In this document: piece after piece, positions 18,429 through 57,142 of the stretch
Layout: every line of letters starts with the position of its first letter
How positions within the stretch are numbered: position 1 is the first letter of the stretch
Source of the DNA: Saccharomycopsis phalli
Lineage: Eukaryota > Ascomycota > Saccharomycetes > Ascoideales > Saccharomycopsidaceae
Assembly (NCBI GenBank): GCA_020342235.1
Contig: CP073215.1
Location: 1,488,001-1,552,000, forward strand
DNA length: 64,000 nucleotides
Reading direction: 5' to 3'
Notes under the pieces: generated by a model
What the model was told of the DNA's origin: nothing
What the model saw: only the letters and a program-made list of their open reading frames with translations
Databases searched by the model: none
Position numbers and translations under genes: made by a program

Positions 18429-20546
18429 ATGGAAGGCCTAAATTTGAACAGTCCATCAGATATTAATGTATATTTGAAGAAAATCATTGAGAAGAATGAA
18501 AAAGTCTCTGAGGATGTTGGCGTTGGTTTAGTTCTGGCTCTAAAGAAACTTATACTCAAGGATATCGAGATCAATAACTGTATTACCGTTTTGTCGGATT
18601 TGGTGGGATATCTTCCGCGTTCAATCAAGTTTAATCTTTTGTTCAATGATGAATTTTTTCTAGATAAAATCTTTACTTACAGCGTGAGTCAGCCATTCGA
18701 TGATGGCCCTTATATTATTATGAATAGTTATCTCCGTGGAGATTTCTTGTCTAGCAAATCCACAAGCACTAATAATAATAACAGCTACTACGGTTTGTGG
18801 TGCAAAGTCTATAAGCGGCATAAGAAATTCCTTAAGCATGGGACCTCTAGAATGCTTTCTAGGAGTCCTAGCAGCGTCAAGTCCACTTGTGAATTCGCAA
18901 TGCTTTTGGTAATGATTAGCTGTTATGTGCCAAACACGAATTTAGGACTTGACTTTTTTTTGACTTCAAGGGAAACAGGACTTGCTGCCAGTGTTGCAGT
19001 AGTTGTGTTTAACGAAGGGGTACTTCCTTCAGACGTGTATTTACCCATCATGCAAGAGCACATGAGAAATGTGGGTCAGTTTAGAAAAATTCTAGAAGGA
19101 ACTGCTTATGATCCCATTAATAACCCTGTTCACAAGAAAATAATTGATGAAGCTTTGAAGAGTATAAAATCTTTTACCCATATTAACACCAAGGGAATGT
19201 CTGATGCTGATATCTATGAAAAGTCGGGCTTTACAAGGAACCCAGTTGATTACTTCCGACAAAACCATATTATATACTCTACTATCCACTTTGTCCTGTT
19301 CTTCAAATCACCTGTCTTTGAGGAATTCCTACAAAGTTATTCGCTGCGTTCTCGATTAATTAAATCAGAGAACCTCAGATTTCCACTTTTGAAGTTTTTA
19401 TTCCACATTTCAGAAGTCGTCGAAAAATATGTTTTTAGAGATATATTTCCTTTTGAGGAAGTCTTCAGAAAATTTGTGGTGAATGTGGATTACTTCTTTT
19501 TGACTATAATGGCCAAGCTTCATGAATTTTGGCAGGTCTCAGGAGCTACTAATGATAATGAAGAAGATTTCCAGGCACATACTAATTTGATGAAAATTGT
19601 TATAAAGAAGTTAAATGACGCTCTTAATATGGACGATGGGTTTGAGGCTGCTAGAGATGAAGTAAATGCTTTAACTTATCACCAGGCCAAGCAGATTCAA
19701 TTAGAGTTTTTTAAGTCGAATCAATATCGAGGGTTTCTTAATCATTATGAGCTTAAAAGCTATGATCATTTCATTTTTGAGAGTATTAAGCTATTCATTA
19801 TTAATGAGCGGTTAGTGGAATTAGCTAGGGGTCACTTTGGTTACTTATCGAACCCAACACAATTGACTGGTTTAGACAAGGAGAAAAAGAAAATATTTTT
19901 AACCATTAGCCCCAACAATACTGCTATCTTTTATAAAGAGTTTCCTATGAACTATACACAGCAAGAGCCAATTATTCTAGACCAAAAAAATTCCAACCAG
20001 ATTGTAATAAAAGATATCAAACATATTTCTGTTGAAGAAGTGAAGAATAATATACAAGGAAAATTTAGAATTTCTTTGGCGATACCTTCAAAGGTTAAAA
20101 TCACTAAGATATCGCTATTTGGCCGTGAAAGTACCCCGTTTTTTTCTTTCTTCTTGGATACTGAGAAGAACGCAATGTTATGGATTGATGTGCTTAATTT
20201 ACTTATTTCAAAATTTAAGTTTGACAATGTATCAAGGGAAACTAAAGTACAGATGGAGCAATTATTTCAGATAAAAAAGACCAGACAGTTTTCGCCTTTG
20301 GGTTATCTTTATACTAACAATTCCATTGCTTTAATGACAAATGGGAATTTCTTGCAGATTGAAGACACAGATCTTCAATTCAATAAAAAAAGGGACAGAT
20401 CAAATTCCTACGATCAATTTTATGATAGTTTGGAATCTTTCAAGATAGGAGAAGTTGAAGAAGATTCCAATCCCATCAAAGGAGACAAGATTTACAATTA
20501 TGATGCTTTAATTTCCATTTCTGATAACTTTTATTATTCTAGATAA
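18429..20546 (+). CDS. ELMO/CED-12 family protein, paralog A (Lmo1-like)
   Basis: Lmo1/ELMO proteins partner a DOCK-type exchange factor (Dck1) to activate a Rac/Rho5 GTPase. This 705-residue protein shows an N-terminal armadillo-like helical region and a weak ELMO-domain segment near residues 250-400 (KSGFTRNPVDYFRQNH). A C-terminal PH domain starts near 455 with NERLVELARG and ends with the PH helix NAMLWIDVLNLLI near 578, then MEQLFQIKKTRQFSPL. The PH helix and spacing parallel mammalian ELMO1 (YCIWTDGLNALLG). The tail ends in YDALISISDNFYYSR. The frame is intact. It is one of three same-strand paralogs here (24688 and 27549) and has the most diverged ELMO segment. Which copy is the ancestral LMO1 cannot be told. 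Confidence 0.8.
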   Translation: MEGLNLNSPSDINVYLKKIIEKNEKVSEDVGVGLVLALKKLILKDIEINNCITVLSDLVGYLPRSIKFNLLFNDEFFLDKIFTYSVSQPFDDGPYIIMNSYLRGDFLSSKSTSTNNNNSYYGLWCKVYKRHKKFLKHGTSRMLSRSPSSVKSTCEFAMLLVMISCYVPNTNLGLDFFLTSRETGLAASVAVVVFNEGVLPSDVYLPIMQEHMRNVGQFRKILEGTAYDPINNPVHKKIIDEALKSIKSFTHINTKGMSDADIYEKSGFTRNPVDYFRQNHIIYSTIHFVLFFKSPVFEEFLQSYSLRSRLIKSENLRFPLLKFLFHISEVVEKYVFRDIFPFEEVFRKFVVNVDYFFLTIMAKLHEFWQVSGATNDNEEDFQAHTNLMKIVIKKLNDALNMDDGFEAARDEVNALTYHQAKQIQLEFFKSNQYRGFLNHYELKSYDHFIFESIKLFIINERLVELARGHFGYLSNPTQLTGLDKEKKKIFLTISPNNTAIFYKEFPMNYTQQEPIILDQKNSNQIVIKDIKHISVEEVKNNIQGKFRISLAIPSKVKITKISLFGRESTPFFSFFLDTEKNAMLWIDVLNLLISKFKFDNVSRETKVQMEQLFQIKKTRQFSPLGYLYTNNSIALMTNGNFLQIEDTDLQFNKKRDRSNSYDQFYDSLESFKIGEVEEDSNPIKGDKIYNYDALISISDNFYYSR

Positions 20547-22019
20547 ATATCTAATGACTGGCAGCTTTCTGGTATAGCTTATAAGTGGCTAATAAGTAGT
20601 GGCGCTGTCTTTAGTCGTTGATAGTGAAATATCGATCACTCCTGTGGACTTAGTATAGCTATAGCCTTAAATAAATATCAGTGTAATAAAGAGGATGAAA
20701 GGGTTACCCTAAAAAAGTTTATCTACCGTCTGTTTGGTTCCTAGGAAATGGTCTAGCCAGATCCATTCACTCTACACAACAACACTGCATCCTTTCCATG
20801 ACCTCTGAGCAGTTCCAAGACATTCATTCCTCTCTTTGAAACATTTCTTTCTTTGTTCTTCCATTTCTGTTTCTGTTATGCTTGCTTTTTGACCCAGTCT
20901 CCTAGTCAGAGGTAATGGTCTCGCCAAGTCCATTCCCTTAGACCAAAGAATGTGTCTTACTTTCTCCAGATATAAATAGTTAGACTATTCCCTGAATAGT
21001 CAAGCGAATATATTTTAGCTATTTTACCAACTTCATATCCTAGTTATTATATTACAATCAGTATAATGAATCATTGAACGCAGACTGTACAAACGAATGC
21101 ATACTCTGCATATCCCTATACCGAACAATGTATATATCGTAATTTGGTCGGTGATTTATCAAATAAAATTAATAAATGAATATAGTAAAATAATACACGT
21201 ATTCATTCATGTACGATAGCTGAGGCGGTTAGTCATCATGGAAATACTCTCACTAAGAGTGCTGAGCAGAATAGTTGCTTAGAATTAAATGATTGATTCT
21301 AGCGCGCAGCTGAGAAGGTAATATATTTAGCTTTTATACATTCGATTATTTAAATTTAAAAATCTATATCGTTTTACAATTGATCATTTGTAGTTACCCA
21401 ATCGTTCCGACTGGGTCATTCATACATCTGTGATTATTAGTGGAAATCCGATTATTCCGATAGAAATTTGTAATAATTTCCTGAGAGATGTACAAATTTA
21501 TAATCATTCATGACGGCTAGGTTGTACACAAGGTAAACAACTTAAGTATTATATAAACTAGCTACACATAAGCGCGTGTTAATGTTTTCAAAGTATAGAG
21601 AATGACCATAAGAAACTAGTATCACAGGTTTTCTGGTATCTGATGATAAGATGACAAGTAGGCCAAAACAAGATATCATCGGTATTATAGGAATTCTATA
21701 TGTGAATTATAGTTATTGTAAAGATTTTGAACTTTTCAGTGACTGTTTATTGTTCGTATAGTTGTTTTGTTTCAAAGCCACCTTTTGACATGATGTATGG
21801 TTTATATACGATTTAAGTGCATCTATTTATCCGTGGCGATTGCTGAAAGGTAGATCATCGACTAAAATAAATTTCAGTGACTAGCATGTAATTATGGAGA
21901 TAGTACCAAATCTAATATATTCTTTCTAAAAGTCATTATGCGTGCTTTAACATTTATGCTTAATGTATATCGTGCCATACAAAGTACAACAGTCAAATTG
22001 TCTATTCCAAAGAGACAGC

Positions 22020-22153
22020 AAATTACATGATAGTAACATATATTAGTAATGAAATACATCGGGAATAGCGGCATACATAGTAATAGCAAATTACATGACA
22101 CTGGAATACCTTACTAATAACATACATTAGTAATGACATACATTAGGAATAAC
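22020..22153. repeat. Imperfect direct repeat pair
   Basis: The unit starts AAATTACATGA at 22020 and again at 22088. Both copies continue with ACATAYATTAGTAATGA and end in GGAATARC. The second copy carries about 15 extra bases and a further echo of ACATACATTAG. Its function is unknown. Confidence 0.6.
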
Positions 22154-22545
22154 AAAATACTTAATAACAACAAGTTATGGTAATAATAGCGAAAATAAAC
22201 CGTAATTATCTGATCAAGTATTTCCCAATTCAACCATTTTATTGGTACCATTTCTGAATATGATATCAATTATTTAGATTTAATCGCCTGTTCTGCTACT
22301 CCACCATCACCATATCGGACCCGCTACATAATTATTACAAGGGTGGAGGGCGCAAAAATTTTCAGGCGAGGTCACCAGTGCCACACTCCAAATACAATAC
22401 AACAAATAGCATCATCTAAATAATCTAATAGAACCAATCCTTATACCCAATGTTCACAATGCGATTTGGGCCATTAATCGGGGAAATCGAGACATGGTAT
22501 GATCCTATTAAATAAGCTTTTTGTTTATGCATATTCTTACTTATG

Positions 22546-22593
22546 GCCCATGAGCCCCATGGGCTGCGGGGCAAGAAAAACCGGGTTTATAAA
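22546..22593 (+). promoter_or_regulatory. Operator-like inverted repeat and TATA box before the MFS gene
   Basis: GCCCATG (22546-22552) and CATGGGC (22558-22564) form a perfect 7 bp inverted repeat around AGCCC. A TATA-like TTTATAAA lies at 22586-22593, about 50 bp before the ATG at 22644. The G+C-rich palindrome stands out in AT-rich surroundings and looks like a dimeric transcription factor site. Further upstream, CGGACCCGC near 22316 may be a zinc-cluster factor half-site pair. Confidence 0.5.
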
Positions 22594-22643
22594 TTCGTAT
22601 TTTCACCGTCCTTCATCGGAGAGAGTTTAGTCAAAATTTCAAT

Positions 22644-24305
22644 ATGCCGTCTAATACTGAGGAAGGCAAAGTACATTATCCGAATGAGGATAACAACGAA
22701 TGCCATTTACTCCACAGGTCTAATTCTACTACGTCAAAGCCTGCTTTTTCTCTTGCTCCTTTGGGTGATACTGATCAGACATTTTTCCCCATTCCTGAGT
22801 CTCTTCCAACCTCACCGGGATACGAGTTGAAAGAAAGTGAAATGTTCCATGTAGACTCTCTGGCTCAACTATTTCCCGAACAGGAAGGCTCATATAATAT
22901 GTCCAAGGAGGTACATAAGACCTTCAAAAGGTCTCAGGCTGTAACTAAATCTGCAGGTGAAGAGACGATTAGTATTAACAATAGGCACCCCAAACAAATG
23001 TCGCTAAATGCACCGGCAAAAAATATTTATCGATTGATTTCTGGCTGCTGCTGGGGATTTATGTGTGGGTTTGCTGATGGTGCAGTTGGTTCTTTGCTTC
23101 CATCCATCGAAGAGTATTATCACATCTCATATTCCATAGTCTCATTGATCTGGCTAGGAAATTCTGCAGGATTCATTCTCGTGGCTCTTGGGTCCTCATT
23201 GATAGCAAAGCACCTTACAATATACTCATCGGTGACTTTATGCACGTTGTTTCAGGCGATTCAATACGGGATCGTGACCTCAGGGACCAAATTTCCCGTA
23301 ATTGTCCTTGGATTCTTCATTGGCGGCATTGGAAATGCCCTCGGATTATCTCAGCATAATATGTATTTGTCGCGTTTTGACAGGGCCACTGTTTACTTGG
23401 GGATACTTCATGGTAGCTATGGTATTGGTGCTACTGTGGGCCCGCTCATAGCCACGGCTATGCTATCGCAAAACATTAAATGGCATTATTTCTACGGCGT
23501 ATTAACTGGGTTAGCGCTCTTTAATTCTGTTTTCGTTTCCTGGTCCTATTTGGGCGTAGTACAGGACTTGAAGGTTTGGGATATCGACAATGAAAGTATT
23601 GAGTTGGATGATATGTCCCAACATAAGGGATCAGCCCTAGAACAAACTACAAGTACCAAGACTCCAGAGCAAACCACAGGCTCCAAGGAATTTTTGCTTG
23701 CAGTAAAGCAGATCCGAACCTGGCTTTTGTCATTTTTTGTATTTTTCTACCAAGGCGCAGAAGTTGGCTTTGGGTCATGGATGGTAACTTTTTTACTCGA
23801 TTATAGGCACAGCGATCCAATCTCTACAGGGTACGTCACATCGGGATTCTGGGCAGGTGTGACGCTCAGTAGAATTGTTTTAACACCAATATGTGTTAAA
23901 TATATTGGTAATCGCCGATCCATCATTATACTTTCATTTGCTACGGTGATTTTCGATATTCTTTCTTGGCAGCTCAAGAATGTAATTGGCGCAGCAGTTT
24001 TTGCATCGTTAGTCGGGGTTTCTGTCGGACCTTCGTATCCACTAATGGTGGGAATGATTACAAATGTGTTGCCTAGAAAAGTGCAGGTTATTGCCATGAC
24101 AATTATGACTGCATTTGGATCGTCTGGAGGTGCCTTGTTCCCTTTTATGATTGGCTTGGTGCTGCAATTCCGAGGAACATATGTGATGCATCCCATATTT
24201 ATTGCTTTAATTGCATCTATGCTAATTACTTGGATATGCTTACCAAATGTGGAAAGGATCTCCAAACAGGGCCCTCCGAAAAGTGTGTGGCAACATGTTT
24301 GGTGA
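22644..24305 (+). CDS. MFS transporter, BSC6-like
   Basis: Major facilitator with about 12 membrane segments and a hydrophilic N-terminal tail of about 125 residues, 553 residues in all. The first segment reads CCWGFMCGFADGAVGSLLPS near residue 134. The block ALGLSQHNMYLSRF then LGILHGSYGIGATVGPLIAT near 235-275 is characteristic of the fungal BSC6/YOL137W-type group, which is distantly related to FucP sugar permeases. A charged central loop at about 320-350 separates the two halves. The substrate is unknown. A TATA box lies 50 bp upstream. The gene stands between ELMO-like paralogs A and B on the same strand, and nothing in its sequence links it to them. Confidence 0.8.
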   Translation: MPSNTEEGKVHYPNEDNNECHLLHRSNSTTSKPAFSLAPLGDTDQTFFPIPESLPTSPGYELKESEMFHVDSLAQLFPEQEGSYNMSKEVHKTFKRSQAVTKSAGEETISINNRHPKQMSLNAPAKNIYRLISGCCWGFMCGFADGAVGSLLPSIEEYYHISYSIVSLIWLGNSAGFILVALGSSLIAKHLTIYSSVTLCTLFQAIQYGIVTSGTKFPVIVLGFFIGGIGNALGLSQHNMYLSRFDRATVYLGILHGSYGIGATVGPLIATAMLSQNIKWHYFYGVLTGLALFNSVFVSWSYLGVVQDLKVWDIDNESIELDDMSQHKGSALEQTTSTKTPEQTTGSKEFLLAVKQIRTWLLSFFVFFYQGAEVGFGSWMVTFLLDYRHSDPISTGYVTSGFWAGVTLSRIVLTPICVKYIGNRRSIIILSFATVIFDILSWQLKNVIGAAVFASLVGVSVGPSYPLMVGMITNVLPRKVQVIAMTIMTAFGSSGGALFPFMIGLVLQFRGTYVMHPIFIALIASMLITWICLPNVERISKQGPPKSVWQHVW

Positions 24306-24687
24306 TTTTGTTAGTGGTTAATCCCACGCAAAGTGATGTGCGGAACTAAGTTTTAAATGGGCTTTTTCCGCTGCTTGTTAACGCACGCTTATAGCCAATG
24401 AGAATAGGAGTACCGATTATTTTGCCTACATTGGTAAATTTGAAATAGCATTTACGCTTAACAACAATATGGGAGCCGACAAACAATCTGCTAATAATAA
24501 ATAGATTTATTATTGTGTGTTTCAGCTTGTACTACTGTAGCCTTCATGCATACTACTTGAATATAAGTATTGACCTACAGACATCAGGCTAAAATCTGGT
24601 TAACGTTTTAGCGCAAAATCCAACAGTCGTAGGCATCTAGGAAAAGTAGATAAATACAATGGTCGCCTGTTTGAAAATATCCAAAAC
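24306..24687. other. Intergenic, promoter of paralog B
   Basis: 382 bp of AT-rich DNA between the MFS stop and the next ELMO-like start. TA-rich runs occur near 24490-24515. No gene or clear operator was seen. Confidence 0.4.
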
Positions 24688-26826
24688 ATGGATTTCAAAG
24701 ATTCCTTGGCAATAGATAGATACCTTCACGAGGTCCTCACCGAGACTTCTCTCCCCATCAATCAGGGTATTCGTTTTGTGGAAACGTTGCAGGACAACTT
24801 TCGCACCAAAGATAAAAAAGCAGCTATTAATACCTTGGCACACTTGGTTCCATACTTGAAGCCTTCCTCGGAGTTTAATCGTTTATTCAACGACTACTAC
24901 TTCTTGCAGTCACTAGCCATCTATGCGATTGAGAACCCATTGGAAAATTCCCCTTACATAGTAATAAACTCGTATCTCAAAGGCGACTTTCTCGAAGAAA
25001 CAACAGTCAATAACCCGCATAATAATGATGGCTTCAAGAGCTTTTTCTCGGTGTTCAATAAGCATTCAGAATTATTGGAAAATGTTCCAAAGCGTATCCT
25101 CACGAAAAACCCACAGACAGCTAAAGCTTCTGTCGATTTTGTTATTGCCTTGGTTGCAGTAGCAGCATACCCTCCTAACATAAATTATGCATTGAAGGTA
25201 TTTATTTTGCTAAGAAAGTTGGAATTCACTCAGTTGTTTGAGGGAGTTATCTTGAAGAACAAATTGATTCCACCTGACCTTGTGAAATTAATAATAACAT
25301 ACCATCTAAAAAACATCATCAAGATTATTCATTTGCTATCAAACACCAAGTTTGACCCCAAATCAAACTATTTACATCATGGAATATTGCAGAAGGTGTG
25401 CGAAGGCATTAAAAACATAGCACCACAGCATCTAATCAAAGGCTTATCAGAAGAGAAATGCTTTGAGGTTTTGGGTTTCACCAGTTCTCCCATTAATTAT
25501 ATTGTCCAAAATTATAACATCGCTATGACTCTTTCATGTCTACAATTTATGAACAGTACTTCAATTGAAGCCCTTCGTTCACAAATCAACAGACAGCATA
25601 TGTTATGCAAAGATACAAACAAATTGTTTCCTGTTCAACGATTCATCTTTGAAATTTCGTACTTGATGAATAGGAATCTTTTCCAAAAGACCAACCCAAA
25701 CTTTGAGTACTTGTCGAAATTCATTCTTTTTGGCGACAGTTTAAGTTCCATGTTGCTTGGCAAGACTTTGCATTACTGGGAATCCAGCGAGGGGTCTGGT
25801 GAGGAGGATATCAAAACAGTTGTAGATTTGATAAAACTTGACATGCGCTATGTCAATGCATTGGTTTCGAAGGCAACCGATTTCCTGTTGGTGATGGAAA
25901 AATCATTAGGGCTCCAGTATCCAGATATTAAAAAGATTCAGTTGGAGTTCTTCAAGAACAATCAGTACTCAAACTATTTGGATACCAAAGATATTAGGGG
26001 GTTTGATAGCGACATTATGGGGAATCTCAAGTTCTTTATTGCAAATGAACGGTTATCTGAGTTAACTGTCGGGACAGTTTGCTTTTTAACCAATCCAATG
26101 CATATGAGTGTCAGGGAGAAAGCTGAGAGGTCATATAAGATGACGATAAGCACGAACAGAAGCACTATTTTGTACAAACCTTTTAATGGCTCAGACTCGT
26201 TCGAAGAAATTGAGATGAATAGCACGAGTAGTAAAAGCTTAAAAGTTCAAAACATCAAGTCCATTCATGTTGAAGATACAAGCCATGGGATACTCAAAAG
26301 TTTTGCCGCTCAAACCAACTTGGTTAGTAAAAGTGAAATTTTGATCGGCAGTAGGAACAAGACCACTAGAATAACATTAGTATTGAAGACAGACGAAGAG
26401 CCGTTTGTTTTTTATACAGATAACCAGCACAATGCCATCCTATGGACAGATTCTCTTAGTTTGCTCATTAATAAGTTCAATTTTAGAAAGATCACAGAGG
26501 AAACCAAGCATCACATGGAACAATTATTTGACATAAAAAGAACCATGCAGTTTTCTCCTTTGAGTGATATGTACAACAATAAGAATATCAGCCACTATAG
26601 AGGTAAAGGTGACTTCTTGCAGATTGACAACATTGAGTTTGATGTGACTGATAATACACTCTCAAATGAGTTTCTGGACTTATTAAGAAGCCACCAACTC
26701 AGATCTGACGGAATTATTGAAGAGAGGGACGAAGAAGAAAACGACGATGATAATGACAGTGGTAATGGTTTCGAATATGGGTATAGAGAGTTGGTTGAGG
26801 TTTCCAAAAACTTTTACTACCTCTAG
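24688..26826 (+). CDS. ELMO/CED-12 family protein, paralog B (Lmo1-like)
   Basis: It has 712 residues and the same architecture as the copies at 18429 and 27549. The N-terminal helical repeats include FNRLFNDYYFLQSLAIYAIE near residue 57 and IVINSYLKGDF near 91. The ELMO segment has EVLGFTSSPINYIVQNYN near 260, and LEFFKNNQYSNYL is near 416. The PH domain begins at NERLSELTVG near 452 and closes with the helix HNAILWTDSLSLLI near 577, then MEQLFDIKRTMQFSPL. The tail holds FLQIDNIEFD, an acidic run (EERDEEENDDDND) and ends with YRELVEVSKNFYYL. The expected role is binding a DOCK GEF for a Rac-like GTPase. The reading frame is open throughout, so it is probably functional. Confidence 0.8.
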   Translation: MDFKDSLAIDRYLHEVLTETSLPINQGIRFVETLQDNFRTKDKKAAINTLAHLVPYLKPSSEFNRLFNDYYFLQSLAIYAIENPLENSPYIVINSYLKGDFLEETTVNNPHNNDGFKSFFSVFNKHSELLENVPKRILTKNPQTAKASVDFVIALVAVAAYPPNINYALKVFILLRKLEFTQLFEGVILKNKLIPPDLVKLIITYHLKNIIKIIHLLSNTKFDPKSNYLHHGILQKVCEGIKNIAPQHLIKGLSEEKCFEVLGFTSSPINYIVQNYNIAMTLSCLQFMNSTSIEALRSQINRQHMLCKDTNKLFPVQRFIFEISYLMNRNLFQKTNPNFEYLSKFILFGDSLSSMLLGKTLHYWESSEGSGEEDIKTVVDLIKLDMRYVNALVSKATDFLLVMEKSLGLQYPDIKKIQLEFFKNNQYSNYLDTKDIRGFDSDIMGNLKFFIANERLSELTVGTVCFLTNPMHMSVREKAERSYKMTISTNRSTILYKPFNGSDSFEEIEMNSTSSKSLKVQNIKSIHVEDTSHGILKSFAAQTNLVSKSEILIGSRNKTTRITLVLKTDEEPFVFYTDNQHNAILWTDSLSLLINKFNFRKITEETKHHMEQLFDIKRTMQFSPLSDMYNNKNISHYRGKGDFLQIDNIEFDVTDNTLSNEFLDLLRSHQLRSDGIIEERDEEENDDDNDSGNGFEYGYRELVEVSKNFYYL

Positions 26827-27548
26827 GGATGAGGGCTTTTACAATGCACGTGGCGTATCTGAGCATTTTTAAATAGGAGTGATGTCAATAGACGTACTTA
26901 CTACAACAGTTGTTCCAACTTTAACATTATGGAATTAGCAAGCAAATACATTCTTACCGAACTTAAATTCCGTTTTGTCTGTACCTTGTAAGGCGCGTTG
27001 ACACAATATTTTTTACCGGTAGTTCACGCTCCGTAACCGTGTTCCTGCCATAACCAGCAGTTTGGCACAACCTCCTTGAGACGCGAAGTATCTGTCAACA
27101 TATTAAGGTACAATAGACAGTTTGTACGTATAATAAACATAATTAATATGTTTTCTGGAAATAGGATAAATTGCTTCTAAGACAAACTAGCGCACTATTT
27201 ATGCAGATAAAAATATGAGTTCATACTTGTATACACATATTTCTTCTATCTTTTCTTAGACATATCCTGACAAGTAAGACAAAATATCAAAGCCAAGTAA
27301 GATCAATGGAAATCAGCAAACAACGCCCAAATGATAGTTGCACATAGCCAGAATTGCTGAGAAATTTGAAAATTTATTAAAATAGGCTAGCTGATAATGG
27401 CTAGTATCTTTTTAAGTAGATTTCTTAGCTGTAGAGTGACGCATAACCGTTCTCTCGCTTAACAAGCCAATTACGTGGCATTCACCTATAAAATAGTGTA
27501 AATTCCCCCATTTTTGGCACTATAGAGTCATTTCGACATTACCTCACT
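26827..27548. other. Intergenic, promoter of paralog C
   Basis: 722 bp without a supported gene. It contains CACGTG at 26847-26852 and a TATA-like TATAAAAT at 27487-27494, 55-62 bp before the ATG of paralog C. No sequence shared with the promoters of paralogs A or B was noticed, which suggests the three have separate regulation. Confidence 0.45.
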
Positions 27549-29762
27549 ATGGACCTTCACAATTCCAGTGCTATCAATAAGTATCTTAAAGATACAATAT
27601 CCGCAAAGGGCACACTTGATTTTGACACGTCCCTTCATTTCCTCAATGTTTTGACCAATAATATTAAAACTCTTGGTAGTTCAGAGAAGGAGAAAATCAA
27701 TTCGGTTATTACCCTTAGTAATCTTGTCAATTTTATGCCTAGATCTGATAATTATCAAAAGTATTTTAATGATGAGATGTTTTTAACCTCCTTGCTTGTT
27801 TATGCCGTGAAGCATAAGTTTGAGGACCCAAGTTATATTATTCTTACTACATACTTGAGGGGCGACTTCTTTGAGCACATCACGACCGTTGAAAATAAAA
27901 ATAACGATTGCTACTCCGCTTTTTTTAATATCGTTATTAACTATCCGAAAGTATTAGAGCATTGCAAGGAGAGACTTCTCACACTGAGTGCAAGTACAGT
28001 GAGATCGACTTGTGAATTTGTTATTTCGCTATTGGTTCCTTGTGTCTATCCAGCAAATCTGAATAATGGCTTGCTGATTTATATTTTGTTCAGACAACTT
28101 GAAATTACCTATGTGATTCAGAACCATGTTATCAAAAACAACATTTTACCAAGCAAATTGTCGCAAAAGTTATTCCCTCAGTTGTCGACAATTGTCATGA
28201 CATGTATTCAAGTATTCTCCTTATTGAAATTTGACACTAAGGTCCCAGTTCATCTTAGCGTTATTCGCCAGATTCTTTACTTAATTAAAAGCTTTACTCA
28301 CTTTAACCCAGAAGGCATGACTGAAAAGGAAATTTTTGCGATGTCTGGTTTCACTGAACTGCCAATTACTTACATTATAAAGAACTTTGATATTCCGTCT
28401 TCTGTGGGTGCGCTTGCTTTTGCCAACCATCAGGGTAATAACGAATTTAGAAGAAAGTGCAAGATTCATTATTCTTTAACGGAACTTAGTCGAAGATATC
28501 CTATTCATAAATTCAAGTTTCATTTGAAGAAAGTTATCAATGAGAATTTATTGGATATTTCCAATCCGAACTATGAGGTTTTAAAATCCTCGTTATTGTC
28601 TATCGATGAAATTTTTGTTTTATTGATGGAGAAGACCCTTAGTTACTGGATAAAATCTAATGCCAGCAACATTGGGGAAGAAGATTTCTCTGTGATATTG
28701 AATTTAATTAAATTGGATCTTAAGTACATTAACAGTGCCTTGAAAAACATTAATGACTTTGAAAAGGTTAAATTACACATTAGTGATTTATCATACCAAA
28801 AGGTTAAGTCTATTGAAACCAATTTCTTTAAGAACAATCAGTTTGTTAGTTTCATTGAAGAGTCTGACTTAACTGAGTTTGATAAAGTTATTGTTGATAG
28901 TATCAAGGACTTTATATTCAATGAAAGAATTATGGAACTCAACAAGGGACAGCTTGTATACTCGCATAATCCCCTTTCTAATGGAAATCCAAATACCCAA
29001 AAGATATACATGTCCATTATGCCAAGCAAGAATTTGATTTTATATGAGAAGTTTGCCATTGACGCGAAAATACCGGACAATTTCGATTTCAATACATCGT
29101 CTCACCACTCTATCAATATCAGAGATATTAAGAAGATTGTAATTGTGAGTGATAGTAAGGACTCGCGATTGAAGAATTTGTTTCCGTTGGCCAATGCTCC
29201 TGAAAACTTGTTGACATTAGACAATATTCCAAAGTTGGCTGCGCAAGCCAATGAACATGTTCTGATTTCTTCTAGAAATAAGGTAACTAAGATTTCGTTG
29301 CTTGACTCATTAGGAGCCAGCTTGCTTTCTTTTTATGCTGACAGTGACCGTAATGCAATGCTTTGGATTGATACATTAAACTTGTTGGTAAACAATGGGG
29401 AGTTTGACTCGATCACTCAGGAGACAAAAGGCCACATGGAGCAGTTATTCAACATTAAGAAGACAATGCAGTTTTCTCCATTAAGTCAAGTTTTCAAATC
29501 GGAAGCCATTGGGTTGTATACAGGTGCGTCGAGAAAAGATGGTAACTTTTTGCAAATTGACAACATTCAGTTTGATGATAACAACAATTTGGTTCAAATG
29601 GATTTCCAGCGTATTTTAAATGACAATGGAAAATCCAATTACTACAAAAAGGAGAAGAAGAATATTGCCTCAAAAGGGCGTACCGAAGAAGTTAAAAACT
29701 CTCTGTTTGATTATTCGTACGATGAGTTAGTTTCTGCTACTCACGACTTTTATTATGCTTAA
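27549..29762 (+). CDS. ELMO/CED-12 family protein, paralog C (Lmo1-like)
   Basis: The longest of the three paralogs, with 737 residues. It shares the N-terminal block YFNDEMFLTSLLVYAVK, YIILTTYLRGDF near residue 95 and the ELMO segment SGFTELPITYIIKNFD near 267. FFKNNQFVSFIEESD is near 430, NERIMELNKGQLVYSHNP near 457, the PH helix NAMLWIDTLNLLV near 597, then MEQLFNIKKTMQFSPL. It ends in YDELVSATHDFYYA. The PH domain carries an insertion of about 30 residues (near 535-565) that copies A and B lack. The Leu/Ser position in GFTE-x-P is a CTG codon (28359-28361), where paralog B has Ser and A has Asn, so Ser fits. A TATA box lies about 60 bp upstream. Confidence 0.8.
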   Translation: MDLHNSSAINKYLKDTISAKGTLDFDTSLHFLNVLTNNIKTLGSSEKEKINSVITLSNLVNFMPRSDNYQKYFNDEMFLTSLLVYAVKHKFEDPSYIILTTYLRGDFFEHITTVENKNNDCYSAFFNIVINYPKVLEHCKERLLTLSASTVRSTCEFVISLLVPCVYPANLNNGLLIYILFRQLEITYVIQNHVIKNNILPSKLSQKLFPQLSTIVMTCIQVFSLLKFDTKVPVHLSVIRQILYLIKSFTHFNPEGMTEKEIFAMSGFTELPITYIIKNFDIPSSVGALAFANHQGNNEFRRKCKIHYSLTELSRRYPIHKFKFHLKKVINENLLDISNPNYEVLKSSLLSIDEIFVLLMEKTLSYWIKSNASNIGEEDFSVILNLIKLDLKYINSALKNINDFEKVKLHISDLSYQKVKSIETNFFKNNQFVSFIEESDLTEFDKVIVDSIKDFIFNERIMELNKGQLVYSHNPLSNGNPNTQKIYMSIMPSKNLILYEKFAIDAKIPDNFDFNTSSHHSINIRDIKKIVIVSDSKDSRLKNLFPLANAPENLLTLDNIPKLAAQANEHVLISSRNKVTKISLLDSLGASLLSFYADSDRNAMLWIDTLNLLVNNGEFDSITQETKGHMEQLFNIKKTMQFSPLSQVFKSEAIGLYTGASRKDGNFLQIDNIQFDDNNNLVQMDFQRILNDNGKSNYYKKEKKNIASKGRTEEVKNSLFDYSYDELVSATHDFYYA

Positions 29763-32068: not shown

Positions 32069-33120
32069 ATGGTTAAATCTTTAATCGAGCAAGAATTTGT
32101 AGCTGAAATAGCGAGCAAGTATACCGGTACGTATTAATTACTGCGACTAGTCTTGTGTTAACAGCAGATGTCATTGGTAAGAAAGTAGGAGGTCGTGTGC
32201 TTAGTTTCTCTGATGAGTGGTTTGCGGACGCTACCAACTTGATCGAACCAACGGCGCCAGTTCGAATTGCAAACAAGTTCACGCCAAAAGGCGCATGGTA
32301 CGACGGATGGGAAACTAGAAGACACAACACTGCCGAAGCTGACTGGGTGATTTTCCGACTTGGAGTAGCCTCGGCCAGGTTGATTGGAGCTGAAGTAGAT
32401 ACCGCGTTCTTTAACGGAAACCATGCCCCACACATTTCAGTAGAGGCCGCATACTTGTCACAGGATAGTGACCCGTCACAGGCCCACTGGGAGGAGGTTT
32501 TACCCAAATTGGAGTGCGGCCCGTCGGCCAAGTTCTTCTTTGCCAGATCAGCACTCACCGAGAAGTCATACACCCATGCCCGCTTGAGAATGTATCCTGA
32601 TGGCGGAATTGCACGGTTCCGGTTGTACGGTGAGGTCATCCCGGTATTCCCAAAGAATCCTGACGAGCAATTGGACTATGCTGCTGTGCAAAATGGAGGC
32701 GTGGTAGTAGCATGGTCCGACCAGCACTTTGGTTCGGCTGACAATTTGCTTTTGCCTGGAAGAGGCCATGACATGAGCGATGGCTGGGAAACCAAACGGT
32801 CTAGAACCGCTGGTCATATTGACTGGGTGATAGTCAAGTTGGGTAAAGCTACCAATGTCAGCGAGGTTATCGTAGATACTGCGGACTTTAAGGGAAACTT
32901 CCCACAAAAGATTGTCGTGAGAGGTATTGGCAGCAAGGAAGTTAAGCCGTCGTACGACGATCCGAACTGGGAAGTCATCGTGCCTGAGACGAAATGTGGT
33001 CCACATCAGGAGCACCCATACAAGGTCCTGTCCAGCTCTCATGCTTATACCCATGTGTGCCTTACGATCATCCCCGATGGAGGAGTCAAGCGGATTAGAG
33101 TGTTTGGTACTAGGGCTTAG
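32069..33120 (+). CDS. DAL2: Allantoicase (DAL2), two exons
   Basis: Hydrolyses allantoate to ureidoglycolate and urea in purine-nitrogen use. Exon 1 (32069-32126) encodes MVKSLIEQEFVAEIASKYT; a 38 nt intron with GTACGT donor joins exon 2 (32165-33120), giving 337 residues (yeast Dal2: 343). The join restores SKYT-ADVIGKKVGGRVLSFS, matching the Dal2 block SKNKAVDVIG. Both allantoicase repeats are present: SFSDEWFADATNLIEPTAP with GAWYDGWETRRH, and SDQHFGSADNLLLPGRGHDM with SDGWETKRSRTAGH. The C-terminal IIPDGGVKRIRVFG is typical. The promoter is short (94 bp after MNS1) with TATATAAGATAG, where GATA-factor control would be expected. No other DAL gene is in the window, so it is not in a DAL cluster here. 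Confidence 0.92.
32127..32164 (+). other. Very short DAL2 intron with a CAGCAG acceptor
   Basis: The donor is GTACGT at 32127. The acceptor reads AACAGCAG, so splicing after 32164 (38 nt intron) or after 32167 (41 nt) both keep the frame and differ by one Ala codon. No good TACTAAC branch site is visible inside. Confidence 0.75.
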
Positions 33121-35878: not shown

Positions 35879-38800
35879 CTAGTACCTGATACTATTGGAC
35901 CTTTTAAAAATACTGAACCGACTTTTCTGCTCGGAATGAGACCGAAAACGCTCAGTGATCCTAGTATGTTGGTCTAGATCATCATTGTGGCCTGACTCAG
36001 TAGCCAGTAGTTTTTTGTCATGCTTAAAAAACAGTAGGCTAAATGTAGACTGTCTTTTTCTTAGCTTTCTCTGTTTAACAGGGCTTTCCACAGCCACACC
36101 GGACACGCTCTCGGAAATAGGCAATATTTCATTTGAACCCGTTTCTACTTCCTTCTGCTGATTTTCATCGATTGTCTCGGGAATATATGCCATTAATTTC
36201 TCTTCTGGAACCGTACTTGTAGCAGAAATGGCCGGACTTTGGGATTGTTTGAGAAACGAGGGAGTACCGCTGTCGTGAGTATTAGAAACTGGGGAAGATA
36301 CCGCTAACGATTCATTTTGCGCTGCCAGTTGCGTAAACAAAACATCTTCCTGTCCTTGAGCCATAGGTCCATTTTTTTCTGGAACAGAAGTTATCTCCTT
36401 TTGTGGAACCATAACTTCTACCTTCTCTGGAACAGTAGCATCCTTCAGTAAAACAGTAGCCTCTATCTTCTCTGCAAGAGCAATGTCTTTCTTGTCTGGA
36501 ACAGCCGTATCCTTCTTGGTTGGAACAGCAGCCTCTATCTTCTCTGGAATAGCAGCTTCTTTCTTATCTGGAACAGTAGTATCTTTCTCCTCTGGTACAG
36601 AAATCTTGTCTTTCCCCGAGGCTCTAGTTACTTCTCTTTCTTCAGTTGTGAGGAAATTCCCATGTGAGCCTCCTTCAACTCTGGGCTGCACATCCAAGGA
36701 GCTTTGTATAGATGTTACATCATCCTGCTCCAATTTCTTCTGCGATTTTTCATCTATTATAATAGTAGAACTATGCTGGCTAGTTACAGACATATCCATA
36801 GAGTTCTCCTTGATTTGTTCCAAAGGAATACTAGTCATAGGTGTAACATTCAGCTCATCACTTGTATTTTCAATATGAATCTTAGGCGGAGGGGATGGCG
36901 TGCCTTTATGAGTAGAAGGGGCTTCATTTGTCGGCACCTTCAACAAAACTTTCGGCTGATCTGTCTCTGGGAATGATTTCAATTTTCGACCAGTAGACTC
37001 ATCTTCCACGGGTTTTCCAGTAATATTCAGTTCATGCTGACCACTTGTGGCTAGAGATGGCGAAAATTCTACTCCGGCATATGATGACACGTCTAATGGG
37101 CTGCAATCCTCATCGAGGGGCTCATCAGCAGTAGCAGCCGGTAAATTTGATGATTTTCCATTCTCGATTTCTTCCGAGTCATGAGCAAACACACTTTCAG
37201 GTGAGTTAGCAATCTTAGCTTTGTGCTTGTCCTTTTTATCTTGTTTCTTATCCTTTTTACTCATATGCAAGAATGCCAAAATTGTCAGGAGCTTCTTCTT
37301 TTTTAAAGGCTTCTTTTTTAGAGATTTCTTGTCTGAGGTAGCCGTTTCTCTATGTTTCAGGTCATTGGCAGCATCATTAAGAGCATCGTAAGACGCAGTA
37401 CGCTCAGTAGAGATCTTAGAATCAGTCGCCTTTGAGTTAACCTTTATAACAGTCGGGATAATTTGTAGCTGATCTAACGTGCTGCTACTTTCCGTTACTT
37501 TTCTGTTAATCGCAGTAACATTTTCGCCCTTCTCAATATTATTTGTGGCTAACGGAGGCTCTTCATTGAAGAGAGATTGGTGATCACCAGCCTCAGATAA
37601 ATACTTGACCAACTTAGACAAGAAAAAGTCAAAGTTATCAATGAGGATTTTTAGTATCAATTGGTGGACATTGTAGTCCACATTAATGGAGTTAAAACTC
37701 TCCAACGAAAAATTGTGATGCCCAGGGTTTTGGTTTTGATTATTGAAGTTGACAGAAGAAGAAGTAGCGCAATTACCATACATTTTCGAGCTCAATCCGC
37801 TTTGAGCTGAGTTACTGCTGATAACACTACCTCTTGTGAATGTAGGAGATAATCTATTATTAGGCTCGTTTCCACCAGGAATATTGTATGTGTTGTTTGT
37901 GTTGATAGAAACGCTGAGCCTGTTGGTAATAGTATTAGTGGTGGTGTTGGAGTTAGACTTTCTCAACTGATTGCTATTAAGAATTTCAATACCTGTTGTT
38001 CCCGTCAAACCAGAAGAACTAAATTGATTATTTAGAAAAAAAGATGTTTGAAATATTTTGGACAAATTAAACGAATTCATTTTTGTCTTATCATAGTTAT
38101 CTGCCCTGGAAAGACATGATAAGAACATAGTGATGTAAATTATAATGTCTAGATTGGCAGACTGCAAATTAGGCACGACAGTGTTGCTCATAAATTCCAA
38201 AAAGTGGACGACAGTCATTTTAATCGGCTGTGGAAGTACTTTCAAAGACTCTACTGAGTTTTGCTTGCCTTCACCCTCTAATGCCGAATCAATGGATAAA
38301 ACCGACAAAAGCGAGTGCTTCCTTGGGTTCAGAGGCGGGATTGGACGAATTAATGGAACCTTGATTGGAGTCTCGAGTTTTTTCTTTTCATCCGTCATGT
38401 CTGTATCTTTAGGATGGCTCACAGGCTCAGTATCAGGGTTCACATCGACAATTAATACAGGTGTCTTTTCTGCATCGCTCTCATTAGTAATTCGAGTATC
38501 CAACTTAGAATTACCATCCTCTGTATATTCTGGCGACTTCATCACATCTGGAAATTTTGGAGGAGTGTCCAGAACGCTAAAAGATAGCAGTTCATCAGCA
38601 TTCTGTGATAATGCCAAAAAATCTCTGTACTCAGACTTTTCAAGTTCCAGTTTAATTTGCTTAACACTTTCTGGGGGGAAAAGAGAGTCAGGTAAGCTAT
38701 TTAAATAGCGCTTTAACAAAGTAGCCACCTCATAAACAGTCACGTCATGTTTCATATCATTAATCTGATATTCAGGATCAGAGTTGAAGCTTTCTTCAAG

Positions 38801-56257: not shown

Positions 56258-57142
56258 AACACACTGGCTAAATTATGACTCCAGAAACGGATTTATAACA
56301 GGTATAATAAAAGGAATAATTTCTGATGGTGAAATATTTATCTTGCCACACTTGGAACTGAAAAGATATTTCGAAGGCAATACTAATGGAGTTGACCCGG
56401 GTAAATGAGCTCTGCAACTCAAGCTTTAAATCTATTTATAACAAATAGATAACCTAGTATTGGTATTATGGTTTCTTAATGCGTATCTATTATTGGATGG
56501 CACCTTCTTCCCAATGATTTTGCAATATTAATGGAATATATCCCTCACAAACCTTTTTATTTTAGTGAGTGCAGAAAAATAGAGCTATGTTTTTCCTTAT
56601 TATGTACCAGGGCTCTTGGTATTGAAGCGGATGACCTGCAAAACGACGTCATGTCATACAGAGTATTGAACTAAAGGAATATATGAAATTTTCGGATAGA
56701 GAGTAAAATGCGGCAACACAGACATGACTACTTCTATCCAATCCCCGCCGTAATATGGTACGCGCTATCTAGAAATTAAATTTGCACATATTGGGCGTTT
56801 ATTATTGTATATATAGCTTCGTAGACTAAAGTTAGCGAAGTGACCCCATACAGCCACAAATTAGATATTACCCGGATATCAGAAACTGTATTTAAAGGAG
56901 ATTTTGTCCTAGTAGTTTTTTTCTTTACCTTTGTCCAAAGGAATCCATCATTCTAGACAGTGCGAATACTAGTTTCAATATTAATTTTTTGTTTTAAAAG
57001 ATTGTATTAATACTCCAATCTAGTTATTACGCGATAATTGATGGAGAAATGAACTGATATACTTTAAGAACTCGTCTGGAAGTATTTATGAGAGATGAGT
57101 GTCAGTGTATGTCTACATTTTTTTCCAAGTATTTTTAGTTGT

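Follow-up and report, generated by a model that had tools for sequence, protein, structure and literature searches.

Three very divergent, predicted ELMO-type genes retained at one locus of Saccharomycopsis phalli

This study analyzed a stretch of 64,000 nucleotides (nt) from contig CP073215.1 of the yeast Saccharomycopsis phalli (the window, which means this whole stretch) and a cluster of three genes, named E1, E2, and E3, at its positions 18429-29762. The three genes encode homologous proteins, which the Pfam profile PH_12 and predicted folds support, and other sequence evidence weakly supports, as very divergent members of the ELMO type. The results also support the view that all three copies are constrained by purifying selection. 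The original prediction for this locus had described a local triplication of ELMO/CED-12 (Lmo1) genes; that observation is confirmed, and its interpretation is partly supported. We regard it as about an even question whether the proteins are three alternative regulatory subunits that share one DOCK (Dck1) partner and that arose through old duplications in place under purifying selection, and the mechanism of three partners around one DOCK is plausible.

The open reading frames were exactly as predicted, with three full-length frames of 705, 712, and 737 residues on the same strand. BLASTP aligned the copies over most or all of their length with pairwise identities of 32-33% and E-values of 6e-117 for E1-E3, 6e-131 and 4e-129 for E2-E3, and 4e-110 and 6e-113 for E1-E2; chance resemblance is therefore excluded. 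The local triplication stands, with the correction that a gene for a major facilitator superfamily (MFS) transporter lies between E1 and E2. The shared blocks that had been noticed (GFT..P, NA(M/I)LW.D.L.LL, MEQLF.IK.T.QFSPL, and a terminal FYY) were found in the alignment in all three copies, which vary in PH loop length and tail charge and have GC contents at third codon positions (GC3) of 0.36, 0.46, and 0.41. A recent allelic or assembly duplication was rejected because the copies share only 32% identity. Relatives of the three proteins were not confirmed among the 242 and 461 pattern matches in viral contigs and GTDB prokaryote genomes, respectively, as is expected because the gene is fungal.

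An ELMO1-type C-terminal PH domain had been predicted for the three proteins, and the Pfam profile PH_12 (PF16457) indeed matched all of them above its curated cut-off of 27 bits (Table 1), also when the genes were translated with code 12. The PH_12 profile is possibly not restricted to ELMO proteins. A profile of the PH segment was searched against 177,635 PDB sequences, and ELMO1 from the DOCK2-ELMO1 crystal (3a98_B) ranked at the top of the four matches at E <= 10. This match was weak (E 0.13), and its alignment was colinear from the helix preceding the PH domain to slightly beyond the helix closing it. A single-sequence search of E2 against PDB returned nothing, and NCBIfam gave no match for any of the three proteins. 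With a profile of the full alignment, the PDB search returned only a PCNA chain, the same chance match three times, which was rejected; the Pfam matches to gelsolin and TFCD_C in E3, to PH in E2, and to RAD51D_N in one segment were likewise rejected, since they scored under their own cut-offs. A PH_12 scan of 14 control genomes was silent, and such silence says nothing on absence.

The structures of E2 and E3 were predicted with AlphaFold from an alignment of the three copies alone, and because both models share that alignment, they are not independent. E2 was modeled with the standard code and E3 with code 12, and E1 was never the lead sequence. A Foldseek search of 350,542 PDB chains revealed that ELMO1 of the DOCK2-ELMO1 complex (6tgb_B) was the top match of both models, with 688 aligned columns for E2 and 694 for E3 (E-values in Table 1). 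ELMO2 and the ELMO1 PH domain occupied the next ranks, with template modeling (TM) scores of 0.62-0.67 across the PH domain, and the first matches outside the ELMO proteins were a formin for E2 (E 1.3e-2) and PLC gamma for E3 (E 6.0e-3). The alignment to ELMO2 (6idx_A) spanned 466 and 470 columns and covers the ELMO-domain region only if it is global. A BFVD fold search with the E3 model gave no match at E <= 0.001. Both models were helical from residue 6 to approximately residue 460, with the first strand at residue 463 or 468; in blocks of ten residues, confidently predicted helix (predicted local distance difference test score, pLDDT, of 72-90) was found at residues 1-100 of E2 and at residues 1-110 and 121-240 of E3, and much of the middle scored low. 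The overall predicted order of helical repeats, an ELMO-like region, and a PH domain matched that of ELMO1 in both models, although the TM-scores were low.

This predicted architecture resembles that of animal ELMO1 and ELMO2 (6tgb, 6idx, 3a98, and 2vsz), in which the helical body likewise precedes an ELMO region and then a PH domain bordered by helices. Animal ELMO1-3, however, have an N-terminal ubiquitin-like Ras-binding domain (RBD), whereas the E2 and E3 models have a confidently predicted helical N-terminus devoid of strands that leaves no room for an RBD. In-frame stops lie at most 300 nt upstream of the start in all three copies. According to the available part of the DOCK2-ELMO1 study, RhoG can reach the ELMO1 RBD, which in the closed state obstructs the site for Rac1, and the stable interface consists of the two helices flanking the ELMO1 PH domain and a PxxP segment, which binds the SH3 domain of DOCK2 (PMC7351999). 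Animal ELMO1-3 carry this PxxP motif at the C-terminus, in contrast to E1, E2, and E3, none of which contains one. Because the RBD and the PxxP motif are missing, we did not assign the three copies to the animal-type ELMO1-3. Yeast Lmo1 of Saccharomyces cerevisiae and Candida albicans, which acts with Dck1 as an activator of Rho5/Rac1, belongs to the same ELMO type, and the fold and PH_12 point to its kinship with the three proteins.

Comparison of the copies revealed proportions of nonsynonymous differences (pN) of 0.45-0.47 and of synonymous differences (pS) of 0.77-0.83. The synonymous sites are saturated, and the duplications are therefore old. The earlier proposal that strong divergence with intact frames reflects selection holds with respect to purifying selection and the frames, but because of this saturation no ratio of dN to dS could be computed. 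Amino-acid distances between the copies were 1.7-2.0 substitutions per site. The branch lengths were broadly similar (0.78 for E3, 0.88 for E2, and 1.11 for E1); E2 and E3 are slightly nearer each other, and E1 has the longest branch, still within range. Divergence together with intact frames is retention and, on its own, no evidence for specialization.

The distribution of conservation was analyzed over regions taken from the E2 model, counting as invariant the columns that are identical in all three copies. Invariant columns made up 39/250 (16%) of the N-terminal helical part, 35/182 (19%) of the ELMO-like part, 10/28 (36%) of the helix before the PH domain, and 19/119 (16%) of the PH barrel. 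The proportion rose to 8/15 (53%) in the C-terminal helix of the PH domain and 23/52 (44%) in the stretch after it and was 6/66 (9%) in the tail. The peak thus falls on the helix closing the PH domain and the residues just after it, near the position of the DOCK contact of ELMO1. When the flanks of the PH barrel (E2 residues 433-460 and 580-620) were taken together, 43% of their columns were invariant versus 17% elsewhere; of the 712 circular shifts, counting the unshifted position, 14 did as well. Within residues 580-620, only the first helix has a known ELMO1 counterpart.

The CTG codons of the cluster do not behave as leucine codons. When the three proteins were aligned, hydrophobic residues stood opposite CTG in 3 of 20 cases; the corresponding counts were 338 of 430 for the five other leucine codons and 62 of 366 for those of serine (Fisher's test, p = 7e-9 against leucine and p = 1 against serine); the 20 residues are two partners for each of 10 of the 11 CTG codons and are not independent. 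The log-likelihoods for the reading of CTG were -61.3 for serine, -63.0 for alanine, and -74.7 for leucine, which places serine slightly ahead and does not separate serine from alanine. In alignments to solved structures judged by eye, four CTG codons of POB3 faced S, E, Q, and Q in 7nky_O, two of MNS1 faced A and R, the A adjoining a gap, and one of SMC4 faced L; the remaining CTG codons of these genes lie outside the alignment coverage. CTG is thus most likely not leucine here, which makes a CUG-Ser or CUG-Ala yeast the probable source. The standard-code translation in the original prediction is probably wrong at 11 residues (three in E1, two in E2, and six in E3). The conclusions on family, fold, and selection are independent of the CTG reading, on which expression experiments would depend.

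The simplest reading of these results would be that a common partner, by homology a DOCK protein, is kept through the part flanking the PH domain, while the remainder of the proteins differs. An old Lmo1-type ELMO gene would have been duplicated twice in place in a yeast with a reassigned CUG codon, and purifying selection would have retained all three copies. By homology, each protein would act as a noncatalytic subunit of a DOCK-family guanine nucleotide exchange factor (GEF) and aid exchange on Rac1/Rho5; its helical body would be followed by an ELMO-like region and then by a PH domain whose flanking helices bind DOCK. The three proteins would compete for one Dck1 or join it under differing conditions. 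The common partner would be held by the conserved helices on either side of the PH domain together with the block after this domain, whereas the place and time of Rac/Rho5 activation would depend on the parts that have diverged, namely the N-terminal body, the PH loops, and the C-terminal tails. The MEQLF.IK.T.QFSPL block may stand in for the PxxP segment. The data show that the copies are homologous, to which fold family they belong, that they are retained, and how conservation is distributed along them; DOCK binding, the shared partner, and the division of labor are inferred. In its full form, we put forward only tentatively the proposal that one DOCK and three near-adjacent ELMO-type subunits yield three differently addressed or triggered Rac/Rho5 activators that lack the RBD and PxxP and hold DOCK through the PH-flanking helices and the MEQLF-QFSPL block.

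Several results weigh against the proposal of DOCK-bound subunits. The mask for the PH-barrel flanks was picked after the identity profile had been seen, and it includes the helix that extends to residue 620, which has no known ELMO1 counterpart; moreover, the helix before the PH domain is unremarkable by itself, since 77 of the 712 shifts reach the same value. Since none of the three copies has PxxP, they lack one half of the contact that the animal protein makes with DOCK. Confidence in the models was modest, with best mean pLDDT values of 52 for E2 and 65 for E3 and of 47-49 for the other four E3 models. The whole-chain TM-scores to ELMO1 were low (0.23-0.27), and the root-mean-square deviations were 30 for E2 and 27 for E3, presumably because the placement of the domains is poorly predicted. 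Finally, neither ELMO_CED12 nor any other Pfam ELMO profile matched the three whole proteins or three segments at E <= 10, a search in which the HMMER filters may mask weak matches. A weak ELMO segment had been claimed for the three frames; profile searches thus recovered the PH family in all three proteins but not this segment, which the fold comparison backs indirectly.

The missing ELMO_CED12 match and the low whole-chain TM-scores would also suit another family of helical-repeat and PH proteins that merely shares the PH_12 profile. We consider this very improbable, because ELMO1 aligns with the E2 model over 688 columns and with the E3 model over 694, ELMO2 aligns with both, and the first non-ELMO matches appear only at 1.3e-2 and 6.0e-3. 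Together with PH_12 and the rank of ELMO1 as the best, if weak, PDB match of the PH profile, these fold matches support the ELMO/Lmo1-type identity that had been predicted. Neofunctionalization, in which one copy is the working Lmo1 and the other two have drifted to DOCK-free roles, for example as membrane or cytoskeleton scaffolds, would account for the identity of just approximately 32% between the copies and for the differing PH loop lengths and tail charges; it appears unlikely given that conservation is strongest in and just after the C-terminal helix of the PH domain, near the presumed DOCK contact, that the branch lengths are broadly similar, and that the PH_12 scores are almost equal.

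Purifying selection on all three copies would also be seen if they were redundant dosage copies, that is, interchangeable Lmo1 proteins with no division of labor. Duplicates maintained for dosage are not expected to share only 32% identity or to have unequal GC3, and we hold this alternative for improbable. A further alternative concerns age and spread and is compatible with three subunits sharing one DOCK: the cluster may be an old tandem family of the whole order, present in many sequenced genomes and so far unwritten. Saturated synonymous sites and 1.7-2.0 substitutions per site indicate great age, and the available text of PMC2880306 gives 44-139 tandem clusters per genome for CTG-clade yeasts; against it stands the literature at hand, where one Lmo1 is named for C. 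albicans and one for S. cerevisiae. We judge an order-wide family to be a real possibility, if somewhat short of even.

In the accessible parts of the literature, Rac1, Dck1, and Lmo1 of C. albicans act jointly and upstream of Cek1 in invasive filamentous growth (PMC8308684 and PMC2965673), and Rho5 of S. cerevisiae is believed to be activated by only one dimeric GEF, Dck1/Lmo1, either subunit of which can be recruited to mitochondria without the other (PMC10969153). The portions available of these three papers name one Lmo1 gene and give no copy counts across yeasts, in contrast to the three genes of the present locus. Among the matches listed in literature searches, no title or abstract opening referred to several Lmo1/ELMO genes in one yeast, and the accessible sections of PMC10152721 and PMC12322030 contained no mention of yeast ELMO. 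A survey of 72 genomes, as far as its text was available, described ELMO1/2 genes as lost in budding yeasts and DOCK as retained in fungi (PMC6733946). Three retained ELMO-type genes in one yeast fit poorly with this reported loss. Because E1-E3 are invisible to ELMO_CED12, the reported losses may reflect missed detection, and our results suggest that divergence hides such genes from profile and cluster methods. The novelty of the cluster would be a lineage-specific or order-specific expansion of an ELMO-type gene family, and the cluster would be a naturally occurring example of a DOCK-ELMO GEF with a choice of subunits. In its available part, the Candida Gene Order Browser study describes tandem clusters as common in CTG-clade yeasts, with most member genes under strong purifying selection (PMC2880306). 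E1-E3 resemble these clusters as local duplicates kept under purifying selection but differ from them in that the MFS gene interrupts the cluster and the synonymous sites are saturated.

Table 1. Positions of the cluster genes and their features in the window (aa, amino acids)
Feature	Position	Strand	Evidence
E1, ELMO-like copy 1, 705 aa	18429..20546	+	Intact ATG-to-stop frame; PH_12 36.6 bits; homology to E2 and E3
E2, ELMO-like copy 2, 712 aa	24688..26826	+	Intact ATG-to-stop frame; PH_12 38.6 bits; model versus ELMO1 6tgb_B, E 1.5e-8
E3, ELMO-like copy 3, 737 aa	27549..29762	+	Intact ATG-to-stop frame; PH_12 34.7 bits; model versus ELMO1 6tgb_B, E 4.1e-9
PH_12 domain of E1, residues 461-593	19809..20207	+	Pfam profile
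PH_12 domain of E2, residues 452-595	26041..26472	+	Pfam profile
PH_12 domain of E3, residues 458-615	28920..29393	+	Pfam profile and alignment; longest loop insertion of the three copies
Predicted helix before the PH domain of E2, residues 433-460	25984..26067	+	E2 model; positional equivalent of the ELMO1 DOCK-contact helix; second half aligned to 3a98_B
Predicted PH C-terminal helix of E2 (580-594) with the following stretch and helix, to residue 620	26425..26547	+	E2 model and conservation
MEQLF...QFSPL block of E1, residues 609-624	20253..20300	+	Alignment
MEQLF...QFSPL block of E2, residues 610-625	26515..26562	+	Alignment
MEQLF...QFSPL block of E3, residues 630-645	29436..29483	+	Alignment
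MFS transporter gene, 553 aa, separating E1 from E2	22644..24305	+	PF07690

Ordinary yeast genes flank the cluster on both sides: SMC4, RAD4, and SPT2-like, Nop52-like, and Slu7-like genes on the left, and on the right POB3 and the genes for a class I alpha-mannosidase, an allantoicase, a RhoGAP protein, and an NADP-glutamate dehydrogenase. No remnant of a further ELMO copy was found across five intergenic stretches (best E 0.64). The 2.1-kb gap after E1 (20547-22643) is AT-rich (34% GC), contains no ELMO remnant, and carries a 16-base tandem repeat at 22106-22154. A second MFS gene or an MFS remnant was absent from the window, in which tblastn of the MFS gene returned only itself at E <= 10. 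The allantoicase gene (PF03561; approximately 32100-33120, + strand) has a long frame with no ATG near its start and a possible first exon in another frame; either a short intron or a frameshift would explain this start. Near the cluster, the gene of the RhoGAP protein (PF00620; 35879-39286, - strand) matches, in its best stretch, just the first 81 of 148 profile positions, so that an insertion may interrupt the domain. The part of this gene encoding the C-terminus contains imperfect internal repeats at 36372-36614. The H/ACA snoRNA snR3 (Rfam RF01251, 59 bits) was identified at 56927-57120 on the + strand.

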